Positions 37,495 to 44,281 of a stretch of DNA of 45,138 nt are shown piece after piece. A program made the position numbers and the translations under genes. Each line of letters begins with the position of its first letter. The first letter of the stretch is position 1. The notes under the pieces were generated by a model. The model ran no database searches. It worked only from the letters and a program-made list of their open reading frames with translations, and had not been told where the DNA came from. Source of the DNA: Candidatus Hydrogenedentota bacterium (GTDB lineage: Bacteria > UBA8481 > J006); NCBI GenBank assembly GCA_003697085.1, contig RFFU01000040.1:67133-112270 (forward strand), in the 5' to 3' direction.

Positions 37495-37660
37495 CCGGGA
37501 ACGCAGGCATCTTGCTTGCAGGAAAATTGCTTGCAGGAAAACTCGCGAAGGGCGCAATCCCCTGGGAGCGCAGGCATCTTGCTTGCAGGAAAACCCGCGA
37601 AGGGCGCAGCCGCGGGACCTCGGGCACCGTGCCTGCGGGAAGACAGCGCAGGTTTTGCAA
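37495..37660. repeat. Cluster of REP-like hairpins, several copies
   Basis: GGGAACGCAGGCATCTTGC at about 37497 and GGGAGCGCAGGCATCTTGC at about 37565 are near-identical units that also share AAAAC(T/C)CGCGAAGGGCGCA. Further degenerate ones are GGGCACCGTGCCTGCGGG (about 37621) and CGCAGGTTTTGCAACATG (about 37648). They relate to the copy at 1953-2006. The 289-bp gap between the M29 gene and the MazF remnant holds this cluster and a purine-rich stretch (37410-37465), with no gene. Confidence 0.8.
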
Positions 37661-38508: not shown

Positions 38509-38850
38509 ATGATGCGGTCTGTTCAAAAGAAGGTTCGTTCTCTTCTCGAAGAACGGGGAATGTCCGTTGCCGACCTCGCGGCCCGAACGGGGCGATCCTA
38601 TTCGGATGTGCGGCGGAGCCTGACCGAACCGCATTGCTGGCGACTCGATCGCCTCTTCGATTACGCCGAAGCCCTGGAAACGGCACCTGCTTTTCTTTTG
38701 CCCGCTGGCGGTGAAGCGGTGAAGGGGTTATCCGGTATGCCTGATCGAATGACGGGGTTTCCGATCGAGGAGCGGCTCCGATCCGCCGCGCTTTCTGGAC
38801 GACTGGTGGCGGCTTTGAACCGGATCGGCCGGCGGAACCGGCGGCGATGA
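38509..38850 (+). CDS. Small Xre-like HTH protein
   Basis: A 113-aa protein with an N-terminal helix-turn-helix (about residues 6-65): VQKKVRSLLEERGMSVADLA, ARTGRSYSDVRRSLTEP, and a helix LDRLFDYAEALE. The rest is basic with FPIEERLRSAALSGRLVAAL. It resembles Xre-type regulators or antitoxins. Its stop overlaps the ATG of the nucleotidyltransferase gene by 4 bp, so the two form one module. The ATG pair at 38509/38512 was chosen because the upstream frame from 38401 has no coding character and a palindrome lies immediately before. It could be an antitoxin or a repressor of the pair. Confidence 0.75.
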   Translation: MMRSVQKKVRSLLEERGMSVADLAARTGRSYSDVRRSLTEPHCWRLDRLFDYAEALETAPAFLLPAGGEAVKGLSGMPDRMTGFPIEERLRSAALSGRLVAALNRIGRRNRRR

Positions 38851-39371
38851 CAGGCGAGGGGCTCTTTTCTTTCGAGTTTCTGCGCGCGATGGCTGAAAAA
38901 GAGGTGGAGGCTCTTTTGATCGGGCGGCAGGCGATGGCGGTTTACGGCGCTCCCACGGCGACGAACGATCTGGATGTACTGGTTGTTTCCAAAAAGGCGG
39001 AGAGGATTCTTGGAGAACTCGCCGAGAGTTTCGGATTGGTCAAGGTACTCGAGGAAGAAAGAGGGATGGTGTGGAAGAGGAGGCAGGTTCGTTATACCGA
39101 CGATCCCGAGATACCTTCAGCCGCCGGTGTTTGGCCTCGGGTCGTGGACATTCTGACCATTCCGCGTATGCGCGGCTTCGCCTTTGAGACGGCCTGGCGG
39201 CGTCGCGTGCCGATCAAATTGGAAACCGGCGGCGCATTCTTCGTGCCCCATATCGATGATCTGATCGTGCTCAAGCGCCGTCGCAACAGCGACCGGGACA
39301 AGGAGGATATAGCGTGGTTGAAACGCCACCGCCGTGAGATCGTGGAAGAATTCCCCGGCGTCGGCGGGTAG
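38847..39371 (+). CDS. Nucleotidyltransferase-fold protein
   Basis: A 174-aa protein of the polymerase-beta-like nucleotidyltransferase superfamily. LIGRQAMAVYGAPTATNDLD is the family block, with the DLDVLV catalytic acidic pair and a Gly-Arg in place of the more usual Gly-Gly. The downstream acidic VDILTIPRM and the C-terminal block PHIDDLIVLKR and RDKEDIAWLK match proteins often annotated as nucleotidyltransferases near toxin-antitoxin or abortive-infection loci. It is coupled to the HTH gene by ATGA. The 3' end (EIVEEFPGVGG) and its terminator are duplicated 749 bp downstream. Action on nucleotides or tRNA is an inference from the fold. Confidence 0.8.
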   Translation: MTGEGLFSFEFLRAMAEKEVEALLIGRQAMAVYGAPTATNDLDVLVVSKKAERILGELAESFGLVKVLEEERGMVWKRRQVRYTDDPEIPSAAGVWPRVVDILTIPRMRGFAFETAWRRRVPIKLETGGAFFVPHIDDLIVLKRRRNSDRDKEDIAWLKRHRREIVEEFPGVGG

Positions 39372-39405
39372 CGATTCCTGTTGCGGGAATCGGTCGCCTT
39401 TTTTT
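39336..39405. repeat. 70-bp direct repeat, left copy (target duplication)
   Basis: The block starts GAGATCGTGGAAGAATTCCC and covers the last 12 codons of the nucleotidyltransferase gene, its stop, and the terminator with T run. It is repeated at 40085-40154 with 69 of 70 bases the same (the first 64 are identical). It ends exactly where the left terminal inverted repeat begins (39406). Confidence 0.92.
39372..39405 (+). terminator. Intrinsic terminator of the nucleotidyltransferase gene
   Basis: Stem CGATTCC (39372-39378) with GGAATCG (39386-39392), then GTCGCC and seven T. It directly follows the stop at 39369-39371. A copy without the full T run lies at 40121-40154. Confidence 0.75.
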
Positions 39406-39417
39406 CCGAGTTTCCAC
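39406..39417 (+). repeat. Left 12-bp terminal inverted repeat
   Basis: CCGAGTTTCCAC, directly after the left 70-bp direct repeat. It is an exact inverted copy of 40073-40084. Confidence 0.85.
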
Positions 39418-39458
39418 ATTTAGTGCGTTCGGATAGCCGGAGGAAAAGGATACGAGGA

Positions 39459-39526
39459 GAGGGCAAGGGCAGGGGCAGGGGCAAGGGCATGATCAATCAA
39501 GGGCAGGGGCAGGGGCAAGGGCAAGG
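39459..39526 (+). repeat. G-rich hexamer satellite (GGGCAA / GGGGCA)
   Basis: Two blocks (39459-39489 and 39499-39526) of GGGCAAGGGCAGGGGCAGG-like units, joined by ATGATCAATCAA. The purine-rich plus strand can form G-rich structures. It is inverted relative to the array at 39933-39980, so a transcript could pair the two around the IVP gene. Confidence 0.85.
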
Positions 39527-39537
39527 AAAAGAACGGT

Positions 39538-39565
39538 TTGTCGGCTTATAGAACGTTGGTATCAT
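39538..39565 (+). promoter_or_regulatory. Possible promoter of the IVP gene
   Basis: TTGTCG at 39538-39543, a 16-bp spacer and TATCAT at 39560-39565. The start would fall near 39572, which is the ATG, so the mRNA would be leaderless; no ribosome-binding site is present. Confidence 0.45.
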
Positions 39566-39571
39566 CCCGAT

Positions 39572-39928
39572 ATGGTGAAATCCTCGGATGAATTCGACCA
39601 TGAACGCCTTCAGGTATATCAAAAGGCGGCACTGTTTGCCGGAAATGCGGATCGTATAGCCAAGAAACTCAGGAGAAGACGGCGAGATCTTGCCGATCAG
39701 CTGGAAAGGGCTTCATCGTCCATATTGTTGAACATTGCGGAAGGTGCTGGCGAATATTCAAGGCCGGAAAAGAAGCGATTTTTCCGGATGGCAAAACGTT
39801 CTGGAGCCGAGTGTGCCGGGATTCTCGATCTTTCTCATCGAATCGGCTGTATTACTCCCAAAGTCTACTCAGTGAATCGAGAATTGTTGTTGGAAATTAT
39901 TCGAATGCTCGTTGCACTATGCAGATAG
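39572..39928 (+). CDS. Four-helix-bundle protein (23S rRNA intervening-sequence protein, S23/IVP family)
   Basis: A 118-aa protein with the pattern of the family: FDHERLQVYQKAALF, RRDLADQLERASSSILLNIA, EGAGEYSRPEKKRFFRMAKR and SGAECAGILDLSHRI. Four amphipathic helices are predicted and there is no enzymatic motif. Family members were first noticed in 23S rRNA intervening sequences and also include the Avd accessory protein of diversity-generating retroelements; they oligomerise and bind nucleic acid. It lies inside a unit with inverted terminal repeats, bounded by direct repeats, and is the only gene of that unit. It ends just before the inverted CCCTTGC array. Its function here is unknown. 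Confidence 0.9.
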   Translation: MVKSSDEFDHERLQVYQKAALFAGNADRIAKKLRRRRRDLADQLERASSSILLNIAEGAGEYSRPEKKRFFRMAKRSGAECAGILDLSHRIGCITPKVYSVNRELLLEIIRMLVALCR

Positions 39929-39932
39929 CACG

Positions 39933-39980
39933 GCCCTTGCCCATGTCCTTGCCCTTGCCCTTGCCCTTGCCCTTGCCCTT
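39933..39980 (-). repeat. Inverted GGGCAA satellite, right side
   Basis: About eight CCCTTG hexamers on the plus strand (reverse complement of GGGCAA, one variant ATGTCC). This is the inverse of the array at 39459-39526 and starts 5 bases after the IVP stop. No other gene fits between it and 40084. Confidence 0.85.
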
Positions 39981-40072
39981 AATGGGTTAGTGCTGTCTCG
40001 AAAAACACAGAATCTCGCTAATCACTCATTAGCGCCTCACAACGAGACTTTAGAAAATCAAAGTTTTCCACA

Positions 40073-40084
40073 GTGGAAACTCGG
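40073..40084 (-). repeat. Right 12-bp terminal inverted repeat
   Basis: GTGGAAACTCGG, the exact reverse complement of 39406-39417, followed immediately by the right copy of the 70-bp repeat. Just before it lies TTTCCAC, giving a local palindrome TTTCCACAGTGGAAA. Confidence 0.85.
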
Positions 40085-40154
40085 GAGATCGTGGAAGAAT
40101 TCCCCGGCGTCGGCGGGTAGCGATTCCTGTTGCGGGAATCGGTCGCCTATTTTT
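40085..40154. repeat. 70-bp direct repeat, right copy (target duplication)
   Basis: Second copy of 39336-39405. It carries the last codons of the nucleotidyltransferase gene and the terminator hairpin out of context, then runs into the 3' end of the aas gene. The single difference (A at 40149 for T) creates the TAG stop of aas. Confidence 0.92.
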
Positions 40155-43100
40155 CTTCCGCGAGTCGCTTGACCGCCGCCAGGTCGATCTTGCCCGTGCC
40201 CAGAAGCGGGATTTCATCGACACGGCGGAAGGCGGTCGGTTTCGGGATCCAGAGGTTCGGCAACTTGTACTCCTCCCGCAGAGCATTCACGACCTCCCGG
40301 GGATCCAGTTCCAGTGTATGGAGAACGACCAGTTCCTCCCGTCCGGAGGCGTCGCGGCGTCCGGTCACGACCGCCGGCGGACCGCTTCTGCTCGGTTCGT
40401 CATCCGCCTTCCGTGCGCGGGCGATGTGATCGAGTACGGCTTCCTCGACTCGTCCGTGCGGCACCATCTCGCCGCCGATCTTGGAGAAGCGTTCGAGCCG
40501 CCCGACGATGCGGAGAAATCCGTCTTTTTCCAGGACGGCGACGTCACCGGTCCGGTACCAACCGTCCCGGAGCACCTCGGCCGTTCGGTCGGGATCCCGC
40601 AGGTATCCCTTCATCACGTTTGCGCCTTTCACCCAGAGGATCCCCTCTTCGCCGGTCGAGCATTCTTCTTGCGTCTCCGGGTTCCGGATTCGGACGGCGA
40701 CCCCGGGCAAGGGATGGCCGATGCTTCCGGGCTTTCTCTTGGCGGGCACGTTGATGGCGATGACCGGAGCGCACTCTGTCGCGCCGTAGCCCTCGAGAAG
40801 CGGACAAGAGAATCTTTCCTCCCACGCCTTCGCCACTTCCGGGGGCAAGGTCTCGGCTCCCGCGAAAGCCAACCGCAGGCTCTGGAAGTTCTCGGGGGGA
40901 ATCCGGCGCAGGTAGGCTCGCGCGAAGGTGGGGGTGGTGAGGAGAATCGTGGCGTTGGCGTCCCGGCAGGCCTTCCCGATAGTGTGCGTGTCGAGCGGAT
41001 TGGCGTGGTAAATCGCGGAGAACGAACCTAGAAGAGGAAACCAGAGGGTGCCGGTGTAGCCGAAGGAATGGAAGAAGGGAAGGATGCCGAGGATGCAGTC
41101 GGATTTCCGCGTATCGAAGACGTCGGAAAGACCCAAGACGTTGGCGAGGATGTTGGCGTGGGTGAGGACGACGCCCTTGGGGGTTCCAGTCGAGCCGGAG
41201 GAGAAGATGACCGTGGCGGCATCGTCCGGTTGCCGCCGGCTTCCGGGCAGGAGACGTTCGATGACGGGAAGGGGAAGGAAGGAGAAGAGAAGATACCAAA
41301 GGACGATCTTGAGGCGTGGCAGGGAAGAGGTCAGGTCCTCGAGATAAAGAACGCGCGCGGGGGGAAGCGGCGCCGCGATCTTCTGGAGAAACTTTCGGGA
41401 AGTGAAGATTCGGGAGATGCGCGCACTCCGGACGGCGAAACCCAACGCTTCCGCGGAAGCCGTGAAGTTGAGGTTGACGGAAATCTTGCCGCAAAGCGTG
41501 CAAGCGATGTTCACCATCGCGGCGGCGGTGCCCGCGGGGAGGAGAATCCCGATGGATTCGGGATCTTCGGGATCCTCGGCTCGACGGTTTTCTTTCGGTT
41601 CCGTTTTCGTCGATTCCGAACCGTTCTGGCGGCCGCAAAGGTAGGTTTGCGCGAAGACGTGAGAGACGGCGACGAGCCGACCGAAGGGGAGGGACGAGCC
41701 GAGCGTATCCTGGACGGCGGTCCGGAACCAGGAAAGGCGTGCGGCGCGCAGGAGGGCGCGGGTGAGATTCCGGTGACGGGCGGCGCGGAGCCGCATCGCC
41801 TCGGCGCCCAATTCGAGAACACTTTGGCGGACGGTATCGGCCTTCGTTCGGCTTGGAAGGGGTTGTCCGAGCGAGACGGTGACCGGATAGGGGATCCTCC
41901 GCGGAATCTTCCAGAGGAGACGTCCCTCGGAGAAGGAGAAGATGGAGCCCCAGACGCCGTCGAGGTGGACCGGGATTACGGGAACGCTCGCGGTGTCCGC
42001 CACTGTTTCGAATCCCCTCCGAAACGTCGTCGGCAGTCCGGTCCGCGTGATCTGTCCTTCGGCGAAGATGCAGACGAGTTCTCCTTCCATTGCGGCGTTC
42101 GCCGCCTCCCGTAGAGCGGCTCGTACGCTCTCGCGCCTTCCCGGGGCGATGGGAATGGCGCGCATCAGGCGGCAGAACGGGTGGAAGAGGCGGTGGTTGT
42201 AGTAGTCTTCGAGCATCAGGAAGCGGATCGGGCGTTCGATGGCGCTTCCGATAAGGAGGGCGTCGATGAAGGAGACGTGGTTCGAGACGAGGACGGCTCC
42301 GCCCGTTGCGGGAATATGTTCCCGTCCGAGAATGCGCAAGCGGTAGATGGTCGTTGTGAGGAGCCACCCGGAGAAACGAACGACGAACTCGGCCAGCCAG
42401 AGGCAGAGGAGGATGCCGATGACCAGCGTGGCGAATCCGAGGAGAAGGAAGAGAGTTCGGGGAGAGATGCCTGCTTTCTCGACGGCGGCGAATATCGCGG
42501 ATGCGGCGAGGACGGCGGAGAAGACGAGGAAGTTGGAGGCTGCCAGAACACCGCCTCGATCCGCGCGGGGTGCTCGTTCCTGGACAGCGGCCTGGAGCGG
42601 TACGATGAAGAGACCCGAGGCGAAACCGAGAAAGAGGTAGGTCACCACTCCGCTGGAAAGGCCGTGCGCCGCCGTGGCGATCAGGACGAGCCCGACGGCG
42701 GTTCCGAGTTCGCCCAGCGGCACCAGCCCGATCTCGACCATATTCCGCGACCACCGGCCGGCGACGAGCGAGCCGACGCCGATACCGATGGAGAGCGTCG
42801 TCATAAGGATGCTCGTCTGCGTTTCGAAATCGGCTCCCGTCGCGGTGTTGAAGAGGTCGGAGCGCGCGAAGAGGAGGGTTGCGAAATAGACCATCTGCCC
42901 GAGGAACCAGAAGAAGGCCAGTCCGATCATCGGTGCTCCAAGGGACCTTTTCGGGAGGGATTCGGAAAGGCGGCGGAAGATGTCGCCGAACGGGTTCCGC
43001 CACTCGATCTTCTTTTCCGGCGCGACGGCCGGCGCCGGCGGGACGGCGAGGGAGACGAGCCAGGCGAGCGCGGCGAGGACGGCGCAAGCGAGCGAGGCGG

Positions 43101-43665
43101 ACGTCGGGTCGCCGTGGAGGTAATGGAGCGCCGCTCCGCCGAACGCGGTGCCCAGGACGATCGCCCCGAACGTGGCGGCTTCCAGGACGCCGTTGGCCCG
43201 GGAAAGATGCTCGACGGGGAGGGTCTCCGGGAGGATGCCGTACTTGGCCGGCGAATAGAAGGCGGATTGCGCTCCCGCCCAGAACAACGCGGCCAACACG
43301 AGATGGAAGGCGCCGAAGTGGAACGCGACCGCCGCCAGAAGCATTCCGAAGACCCCGTACAACTGCATCACGATGAAGACGGTTCGTTTCGAGTACTTGT
43401 CGGCAAGCGCTCCGGCCCAGGAGGAGAAGAGAAGGAACGGGATGATGAAGAGCGCTCCGATAACCGACAGGATCACTCCGCCCTCGCTGGTGCTCGAAGG
43501 AATGGAACGGAGGAGAACGAGGCTGACGATCAGCTTGAAGGCGTTGTCGTTAAAGGCGTTGAGGAAGACGGCGACGTAGTAGGCGACGAATCCCTTCCGC
43601 CTGAGGGGGGAAGCCTCGGACGGTGTCGTAGTGGTGCGGTCGGGGGAGGGAACGGGCTTGACCAT
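40147..43665 (-). CDS. aas: MFS / PlsC acyltransferase / AMP-ligase fusion (Aas type)
   Basis: An 1172-aa inner-membrane protein for lysophospholipid repair and fatty acid recycling. Residues about 25-400 are an MFS transporter (LplT-like) with AYYVAVFLNAFNDNAFKLIV. Residues about 430-620 are a PlsC acyltransferase with NHVSFIDALLIG (HxxxxD), FAEGQITRTG and PVIPVHLDGVWG. Residues about 660-1165 are an acyl-AMP/ACP ligase with IFSSGSTGTPKGVVLTHANI, EGYGATECAPVIAIN and WYRTGDVAVLEKDGF. All three activities are complete. The ATG at 43665 starts 1 bp after the CPBP stop, so it is coupled. Two TetR-type palindromes suggest regulation by the neighbouring TetR protein. Its stop was fixed or created at the edge of the 70-bp duplication. 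Confidence 0.93.
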   Translation of the reverse strand: MVKPVPSPDRTTTTPSEASPLRRKGFVAYYVAVFLNAFNDNAFKLIVSLVLLRSIPSSTSEGGVILSVIGALFIIPFLLFSSWAGALADKYSKRTVFIVMQLYGVFGMLLAAVAFHFGAFHLVLAALFWAGAQSAFYSPAKYGILPETLPVEHLSRANGVLEAATFGAIVLGTAFGGAALHYLHGDPTSASLACAVLAALAWLVSLAVPPAPAVAPEKKIEWRNPFGDIFRRLSESLPKRSLGAPMIGLAFFWFLGQMVYFATLLFARSDLFNTATGADFETQTSILMTTLSIGIGVGSLVAGRWSRNMVEIGLVPLGELGTAVGLVLIATAAHGLSSGVVTYLFLGFASGLFIVPLQAAVQERAPRADRGGVLAASNFLVFSAVLAASAIFAAVEKAGISPRTLFLLLGFATLVIGILLCLWLAEFVVRFSGWLLTTTIYRLRILGREHIPATGGAVLVSNHVSFIDALLIGSAIERPIRFLMLEDYYNHRLFHPFCRLMRAIPIAPGRRESVRAALREAANAAMEGELVCIFAEGQITRTGLPTTFRRGFETVADTASVPVIPVHLDGVWGSIFSFSEGRLLWKIPRRIPYPVTVSLGQPLPSRTKADTVRQSVLELGAEAMRLRAARHRNLTRALLRAARLSWFRTAVQDTLGSSLPFGRLVAVSHVFAQTYLCGRQNGSESTKTEPKENRRAEDPEDPESIGILLPAGTAAAMVNIACTLCGKISVNLNFTASAEALGFAVRSARISRIFTSRKFLQKIAAPLPPARVLYLEDLTSSLPRLKIVLWYLLFSFLPLPVIERLLPGSRRQPDDAATVIFSSGSTGTPKGVVLTHANILANVLGLSDVFDTRKSDCILGILPFFHSFGYTGTLWFPLLGSFSAIYHANPLDTHTIGKACRDANATILLTTPTFARAYLRRIPPENFQSLRLAFAGAETLPPEVAKAWEERFSCPLLEGYGATECAPVIAINVPAKRKPGSIGHPLPGVAVRIRNPETQEECSTGEEGILWVKGANVMKGYLRDPDRTAEVLRDGWYRTGDVAVLEKDGFLRIVGRLERFSKIGGEMVPHGRVEEAVLDHIARARKADDEPSRSGPPAVVTGRRDASGREELVVLHTLELDPREVVNALREEYKLPNLWIPKPTAFRRVDEIPLLGTGKIDLAAVKRLAEEK

Positions 43666-43666
43666 T

Positions 43667-44281
43667 TCAGAAGTACCCCAGGAAGAAGAGGCCGCCGCCC
43701 AGCAGGACGAGGTCCGCGGCGACATGGCTCAAGAAAGGTTCCTGGATTCGTCCGCCGCGGGAGAGGAATGACCAGACGAGCCCGGCGGGATAGACGGCCG
43801 CTCCGGTGCAAAGCGCGGCGGAAACGGAACCGAGCCCCGCCAGGACGATGACGTGCTGGAGCGCGAAGCAGAACGCGGAGGCCGGAGGACCGATCTGTTC
43901 GTCGAGGAATCCCCGGTAGAACCACTCTTCCAGAAGCGCGTTGGCCGTGGCGATGAGAAGGGCGGCGGCGGCGGCCGTGGCGGGGGAATATCCGTAGCGG
44001 ACATCGAAAGCGTGCCGGAGTTCACCGGGCGCGATGAAGAGAGGAAGAAAGAGCCAGACGAGGCCGAATGCGACGCCCCCCAACACAAGTCCACTGAGGA
44101 TTGCCGGAAGTGTTTCCGGCCGTTTCGGCGGGCGGGGCGGACGGAGTTTCTTCCCGTAGAGAAACGGAAGGAGCAGAAGCGCGATCTTGTAGAGGCCGAA
44201 ACCGAGCCAACCGTGTCCGAGGAACGGGCCGGCGGCGGCCAAGAGAAGCGGCACGGCCGCGATGAAATATCCGCCGTTCAC
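43667..44281 (-). CDS. CPBP-family intramembrane metalloprotease
   Basis: A 204-aa membrane protein with about six helices. The family motifs are present: ANALLEEWFYRGFL (EExxxR), a His in FALQHVIVLAG and a final HVAADLVLL (HxxxD/N type). It is a probable Rce1/CAAX-like protease, but bacterial members often have unknown substrates. The GTG start at 44281 has no clear ribosome-binding site. A TetR-type palindrome lies at 44318-44335, about 37 bp upstream. It is co-transcribed with aas, so a link to membrane lipid or lipoprotein handling is plausible. Confidence 0.85.
   Translation of the reverse strand: MNGGYFIAAVPLLLAAAGPFLGHGWLGFGLYKIALLLLPFLYGKKLRPPRPPKRPETLPAILSGLVLGGVAFGLVWLFLPLFIAPGELRHAFDVRYGYSPATAAAAALLIATANALLEEWFYRGFLDEQIGPPASAFCFALQHVIVLAGLGSVSAALCTGAAVYPAGLVWSFLSRGGRIQEPFLSHVAADLVLLGGGLFFLGYF

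Follow-up and report, generated by a model that had tools for sequence, protein, structure and literature searches.

How does a short unit of DNA with a single small gene come to stand, end to end, between two copies of the junction that it occupies? This question is raised by a 679-bp unit (39406-40084) in a window of 45,138 nucleotides from a Candidatus Hydrogenedentota bacterium (assembly GCA_003697085.1, contig RFFU01000040.1, positions 67,133 to 112,270); the window denotes this whole stretch, and coordinates are counted from its first letter. The unit lies between a nucleotidyltransferase-like gene and an aas-like gene and encodes an intervening-sequence protein (IVP), a family otherwise associated with the intervening sequences (IVSs) of rRNA. 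It is probably a small mobile element of the IVS/IVP type, standing alone and inserted at the nucleotidyltransferase/aas junction with duplication of about 70 bp, for which hairpin processing and IVP-aided integration are the putative mechanism. The boundaries on which this reading depends are as follows.

39336-39405, no strand: left copy of a 70-bp direct repeat, 69/70 identical to 40085-40154
39366-39405, plus strand: terminator-like hairpin followed by U7, -16.7 kcal/mol; the unit begins directly after it
39406-39417, plus strand: left 12-bp terminal inverted repeat CCGAGTTTCCAC, with its exact inverse at 40073-40084
40073-40084, plus strand: right 12-bp terminal inverted repeat GTGGAAACTCGG, exact inverse of the left 12-mer
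40085-40154, no strand: right copy of the 70-bp direct repeat, including the aas stop codon

Both 70-bp copies adjoin the unit directly, and a repeat search reports them as 74 nt at 97%. A perfect 12-bp inverted repeat situated exactly at the inner edges of this duplication is not a product of chance. The preliminary description of this DNA had already identified the unit, its inverted 12-mers and the abutting 70-bp blocks, all of which were confirmed, as was its assignment of the left block to the end and terminator of the nucleotidyltransferase gene: this copy comprises the final 36 bp of the gene, the strong hairpin and a T7 tract. The right block, which it had considered out of context, is in fact the end of aas. 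The sole mismatch within the 70 bp is T39400/A40149, and because A40149 sits within the aas-like stop codon (40147-40149, minus strand) the right block is native to aas. Each block is thus native to its own neighbour, as predicted for target duplication at a short convergent junction, and a duplication of about 70 bp would therefore have left each of the neighbouring genes with an intact 3' end. These neighbours are:

38847-39371, plus strand: upstream nucleotidyltransferase-like gene (DUF6036; PF19502, E 4.9e-5, exactly at the cut-off), whose 3' end is duplicated
40147-43725, minus strand: convergent aas-like gene (major facilitator superfamily, acyltransferase and AMP-binding domains; PF07690, PF01553, PF00501)

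Within the unit, the IVP gene is itself enclosed by complementary tandem arrays.

39460-39527, plus strand: upstream hexamer arrays GGGCAA/GGGCAG, inverted-repeat score 50 against the downstream array
39538-39565, plus strand: weak sigma-70-like promoter match (9/12; 0.5 expected by chance) just 5' of the IVP gene
39572-39928, plus strand: IVP gene, encoding a 118-aa four-helix-bundle protein (PF05635, E 1.4e-22; TIGR02436; structural model)
39933-39983, plus strand: TTGCCC hexamer array downstream of the gene, which complements the GGGCAA/GGGCAG arrays and pairs with them in the RNA fold of the unit

The arrays, absent from the preliminary description, are 85-93% complementary over 30-39 nt, and the RNA fold of the entire unit is one hairpin containing all 12 terminal pairs as well as the array stem (-273 kcal/mol, z -7.4). 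Assignment of the protein is secure, with profile scores above the curated cut-offs for both PF05635 (80.3 bits vs 33.8) and TIGR02436 (72.7 vs 24). Its AlphaFold model is a four-helix bundle (predicted local distance difference test score, pLDDT, 93.9) for which the closest structures are 2gsc and 2rld, followed by Avd (4dwl). It shares the fold of Avd proteins of diversity-generating retroelements (4dwl, 8ub7) at a template-modelling (TM) score of ~0.74, and the PHROG family of Avd gives a weak profile match (E 1.4e-4). No integrase is encoded in the 679-bp unit, an Rfam search of 38800-40700 returned no match, PADLOC found nothing and a plasmid search found no relative.

The genome (G000; 3.2 Mb in 145 contigs, 94.6% complete) holds a single full copy of the unit; a scan of genome contigs gave only three relatives. 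The left ~80 bp of the unit is dispersed:

39403-39485, plus strand: left end common to three loci, recurring at C50:19730 (80%) and C124:21604 (82%)

The flanks of both further occurrences are unrelated to the window. At C50 the contig terminates inside the array, and at C124 no IVP gene follows the left end; the right end of the unit does not occur again in G000. Related copies at different sites, which mark mobile elements in general, are therefore present for the left end as incomplete copies, and the copies with common ends and different flanks for which the preliminary description had proposed a test exist to that extent and not as a complete element. A second, different IVP gene of this genome is split by a contig break (L003 at the end of C99, L074 at the start of C46), and these two contigs have ~90 bp in common and probably join. 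GGGCAA arrays were considered as a marker of IVP elements and rejected, since many belong to an unrelated miniature inverted-repeat transposable element (MITE) of 340-385 bp. This MITE has the ends GGTGCGATTTTATTTTGTAGGTAG and CTACCTACAAATCAAAACTGCGCC, apparent 8-9-bp target duplications and a GGGCAA/GGGCAG array just inside its left end, and lacks an IVP gene (L056, L059, L069, L070 and L073, on contigs C10, C44, C112, C116 and C133). Repeats of the type GCGCAGGCATCTTGCTTGCAGGAAAA occur at 37500-37640 of the window and also beside other GGGCAA arrays of the genome.

The paired arrays are a widespread feature of IVP loci. Among 130 distinct loci collected from many unrelated genomes, approximately half of these loci stemming from one phylum-level draw, the 250 bp upstream of the gene was compared with the reverse complement of the 250 bp downstream. 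An inverted-repeat score of at least 34 was reached in 53 of the 130 loci (41%), as against 1/664 control gaps (0.2%), these being random gaps from the same loci and not matched genes; at a score of at least 28 the proportions were 55% and 1.1%. Repeat units in the arrays are short: where a period is assignable, most measure 7-8 nt or twice 7 (31 of the 53 have no clear period). They vary by locus even inside one genome, yet match across the same IVP gene. Accordingly, flanks paired from different loci reach a score of at least 34 in only 0.3% of cases, or 0.6% within one genome. Array midpoints lie ~30-120 bp upstream and 20-95 bp downstream. The preliminary description had proposed to look for the 12-mer ends around other IVP genes; these exact ends define the window family only, and other IVP elements have the inverted-array architecture in common instead.

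Orientation is also strongly biased. With neighbouring open reading frames (ORFs) of at least 120 aa counted at 106 loci, 85 have co-directional genes on either side, and 80 of these 85 carry the IVP gene in the sense direction (binomial p 1.8e-18). The upstream gene stops a median of 100 bp short of the IVP domain. An Rfam search of 40 loci placed none in rRNA; two have the IVP between tRNA genes. Related species use the same junctions and keep the locus-specific array, including cysD/cysN, hypF/hypC, macA/macB-like and dinB/dnaE, the gene names being assigned by reading the protein sequences.

Multiplied forms were also noted in individual genomes. G009 has approximately eight head-to-head pairs of IVP-like ORFs (L158-L165), forming repeated near-palindromes of ~700 bp. 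In G055, IVP elements (L166-L169) have the common ends GTTAAGCGCAAAGGCTCAATG and CTTCGTGAATACAAGACG, along with ~190-bp derivatives lacking the IVP, some of them in tandem. Several IVP gene copies in G060 (L178-L185) have a common 5' flank of ~170 bp and different outer flanks, and adjoin long (GGTTCC)n arrays.

Long duplications similar to that of the window occur elsewhere. In G041 (L193), the sequence outside the arrays includes a direct repeat of 112 bp (86%; identical over a core of 58 nt) that copies the 3' end of a gene, and in G159 (L229) the hisC 3' end is repeated over 65 bp (83%), at 2 and 6 bp from the arrays. The hisC repeat of the congener G167 (L227) retains 27 identical bp. A core of 26-27 bp, GAAAATGAATACCTTATTGAGCAACT, is identical in all four hisC repeat copies of G159 and G167 (L229:1367-1431 and 1918-1968; L227 likewise) despite hisC DNA that is 71% identical between them; because the left copy is under coding constraint, this identity is no more than suggestive. 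G135 belongs to the same family and has a single-copy hisC that leads directly into hppD with no element between them, such that both target duplication and empty site are seen for the hisC insertion of G159 and G167.

The cysD-cysN junction gives a second comparison, made with a generic CysD query matching its targets at 71-75%. G140 and G136 have no insertion there, with the cysD stop and the cysN P-loop 77 and 92 bp apart; G109, G093 and G069 carry an IVP element, and one G154 locus carries an IVP element with a different array. Array units might derive from the target sequence (cysN 5' end, PNLQ), an idea that fits one junction but not the G154 insertion at the same junction. Two further cysD-cysN loci of G154 (L292, L297) have spacers that are alike, ~200 bp longer than the empty junctions and without an IVP, possibly containing a structured RNA. 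Empty sites are thus present at the hisC-hppD and cysD-cysN junctions of relatives; for the window locus, where the preliminary description had proposed to look for one with a single 70-bp block, none was seen among genomes that include only one relative in the order.

Direct repeats outside the arrays score at least 34 in 5 of 70 array-bearing loci (7%) when flanks are correctly matched, vs 2/831 mismatched pairs. Not every such repeat is a duplication caused by insertion: that of L208 consists of internal repeats of a repeat-rich gene, that of L207 is a second copy of an element end and that of L039 is two tRNA genes. Long duplications are real yet mostly invisible, having decayed or not always been made.

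The identical cores of 58 nt and 26-27 nt amid diverged surroundings, along with repeats made of gene 3' ends (in the window, in G041 and in G159/G167), are also what site-specific recombination might leave. The direct repeats would then be attL/attR cores, as for islands that enter and restore gene 3' ends, with an integrase acting in trans. This explanation is nonetheless unlikely, for the unit is without an integrase, different targets would each require a matching attachment site, the repeats range from 27 to 112 bp and no sense bias would be predicted.

Another account takes the IVP gene and hairpin as a stable operon module, vertically inherited, that regulates or processes the mRNA of its neighbours and for which mobility is rare or past. 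It agrees with the strong sense bias, with the related species that retain one array at the same junction and with the equal divergence of IVP and hisC between G159 and G167. It is quite improbable, since close relatives have empty junctions, one junction can hold different IVP elements, a genome can contain several distinct IVP loci and the left end stands at three loci of G000.

Retro-copying, by target-primed reverse transcription of an RNA element or in a degenerate diversity-generating retroelement, is very unlikely. The homology to Avd, the sense orientation and the long duplications of variable length speak for it, and an avd-like gene with a copy of a gene 3' end on each side resembles the layout of variable repeat, avd and template repeat. 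However, of 12 IVP genomes, 10 lack the reverse transcriptase family RVT_1, two single-contig genomes among them; because these 10 are G000 and 9 of the 11 others, copying by reverse transcriptase is disfavoured, and the target-primed copying considered in the preliminary description is unsupported. Furthermore, repeat copies do not differ in the adenine-directed manner of these retroelements: the window pair differs at 1/70 bp, and the G041 and G159 pairs at mixed bases. Finally, a one-off local duplication or assembly artefact without mobility is scarcely credible: only one complete copy is present, in a draft assembly with contig ends inside such arrays, but the repeat edges coincide exactly with the 12-bp inverted ends, the two repeat copies differ by a mismatch, as those of a k-mer join would not, the left end is present at other loci and G041 and G159 have the same geometry.

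Insertion of a mobile IVP element therefore remains the favoured reading, and it agrees with the preliminary proposal, in which a stand-alone mobile IVS-like element entered at a terminator and duplicated a long stretch of its target. Support for this comes from the left end at two other loci, from three independent long duplications (in the window, in G041 and in G159/G167) and from empty sites at two comparable junctions. On transcription, pairing of the terminal repeats and of the arrays would create a single long stem, its loop containing the IVP reading frame. By analogy to rRNA IVSs, this stem could be cut out of the host mRNA by RNase III-type processing, and insertions would be tolerable because the hairpin is removable. 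As an oligomeric four-helix bundle resembling Avd, the IVP probably binds the hairpin, whether in RNA or in cruciform DNA form, and probably aids integration into nicks 50-110 nt apart, where gap filling would generate the long duplication.

Several points weigh against this account. No complete second copy of the exact element with both ends was found, and no empty site for the window locus was seen among genomes that include only one relative in the order. Approximately half of the IVP loci lack clear inverted arrays, and few show long duplications: of the 5/70 with high scores, two (L208, L039) are otherwise caused. Since related species are occupied at the same junctions, many of the copies are old, perhaps domesticated. 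For the window copy, with aas in convergent orientation and a terminator ahead of the unit, it is doubtful that transcription reads through. Both RNA processing and the role of the IVP are putative.

Among known systems, MITEs and foldback elements are likewise short with inverted ends, and in foldback elements these ends are made of short tandem repeats. The window unit differs in carrying a gene, and the arrays of IVP elements differ at every locus. Their duplications, variable and of 50-110 bp (70 in the window), also depart from the fixed, short duplications of ~2-10 bp of MITEs and DNA transposons, of which the 8-9 bp of the ordinary MITE in G000 is an example.

The IVP family, rRNA IVSs and the relation to Avd are already known (PMC4990558, PMC10053308). 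The 23S rRNA IVS of Coxiella burnetii, 428 nt in length with a 28-bp terminal stem, is excised by RNase III (PMC4990558). Such IVSs resemble the 679-bp unit in size, in a suspected mobile origin and in a PF05635 gene within complementary termini that fold into one long stem. In contrast, the window unit lies between protein genes and not in rRNA, has short tandem arrays and a 70-bp duplication, and its excision from RNA is only presumed. It works like an IVS and yet lacks the defining location inside a 23S rRNA gene. Heptanucleotide short tandemly repeated repetitive (STRR) sequences and TAACTGA arrays of cyanobacteria and Beggiatoaceae are also 6-8-nt tandem arrays between genes, but are direct arrays without an IVP gene, and S23/IVP is unmentioned in their description (PMC4679880). 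A search of open-licence papers found no description of IVP elements that stand alone and combine inverted arrays with sense bias and long duplications.

It is possible, and tentatively suggested here, that IVP elements are widespread small mobile elements of bacteria of which rRNA IVSs are one special case: inserted in sense at gene junctions with arrays built anew at each site, hidden from selection as removable RNA hairpins, and integrated with neither transposase nor reverse transcriptase to give 50-110-bp duplications. IVP/S23 genes, long annotated as rRNA intervening-sequence proteins without a function, are now seen to share, across many genomes, a conserved DNA context at the junctions of protein genes, and their mobility and putative RNA processing become directly testable. 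A gene-carrying element that makes such long duplications without a transposase would require an unusual route of integration, and IVP elements would account for part of the short tandem repeats found between bacterial genes.
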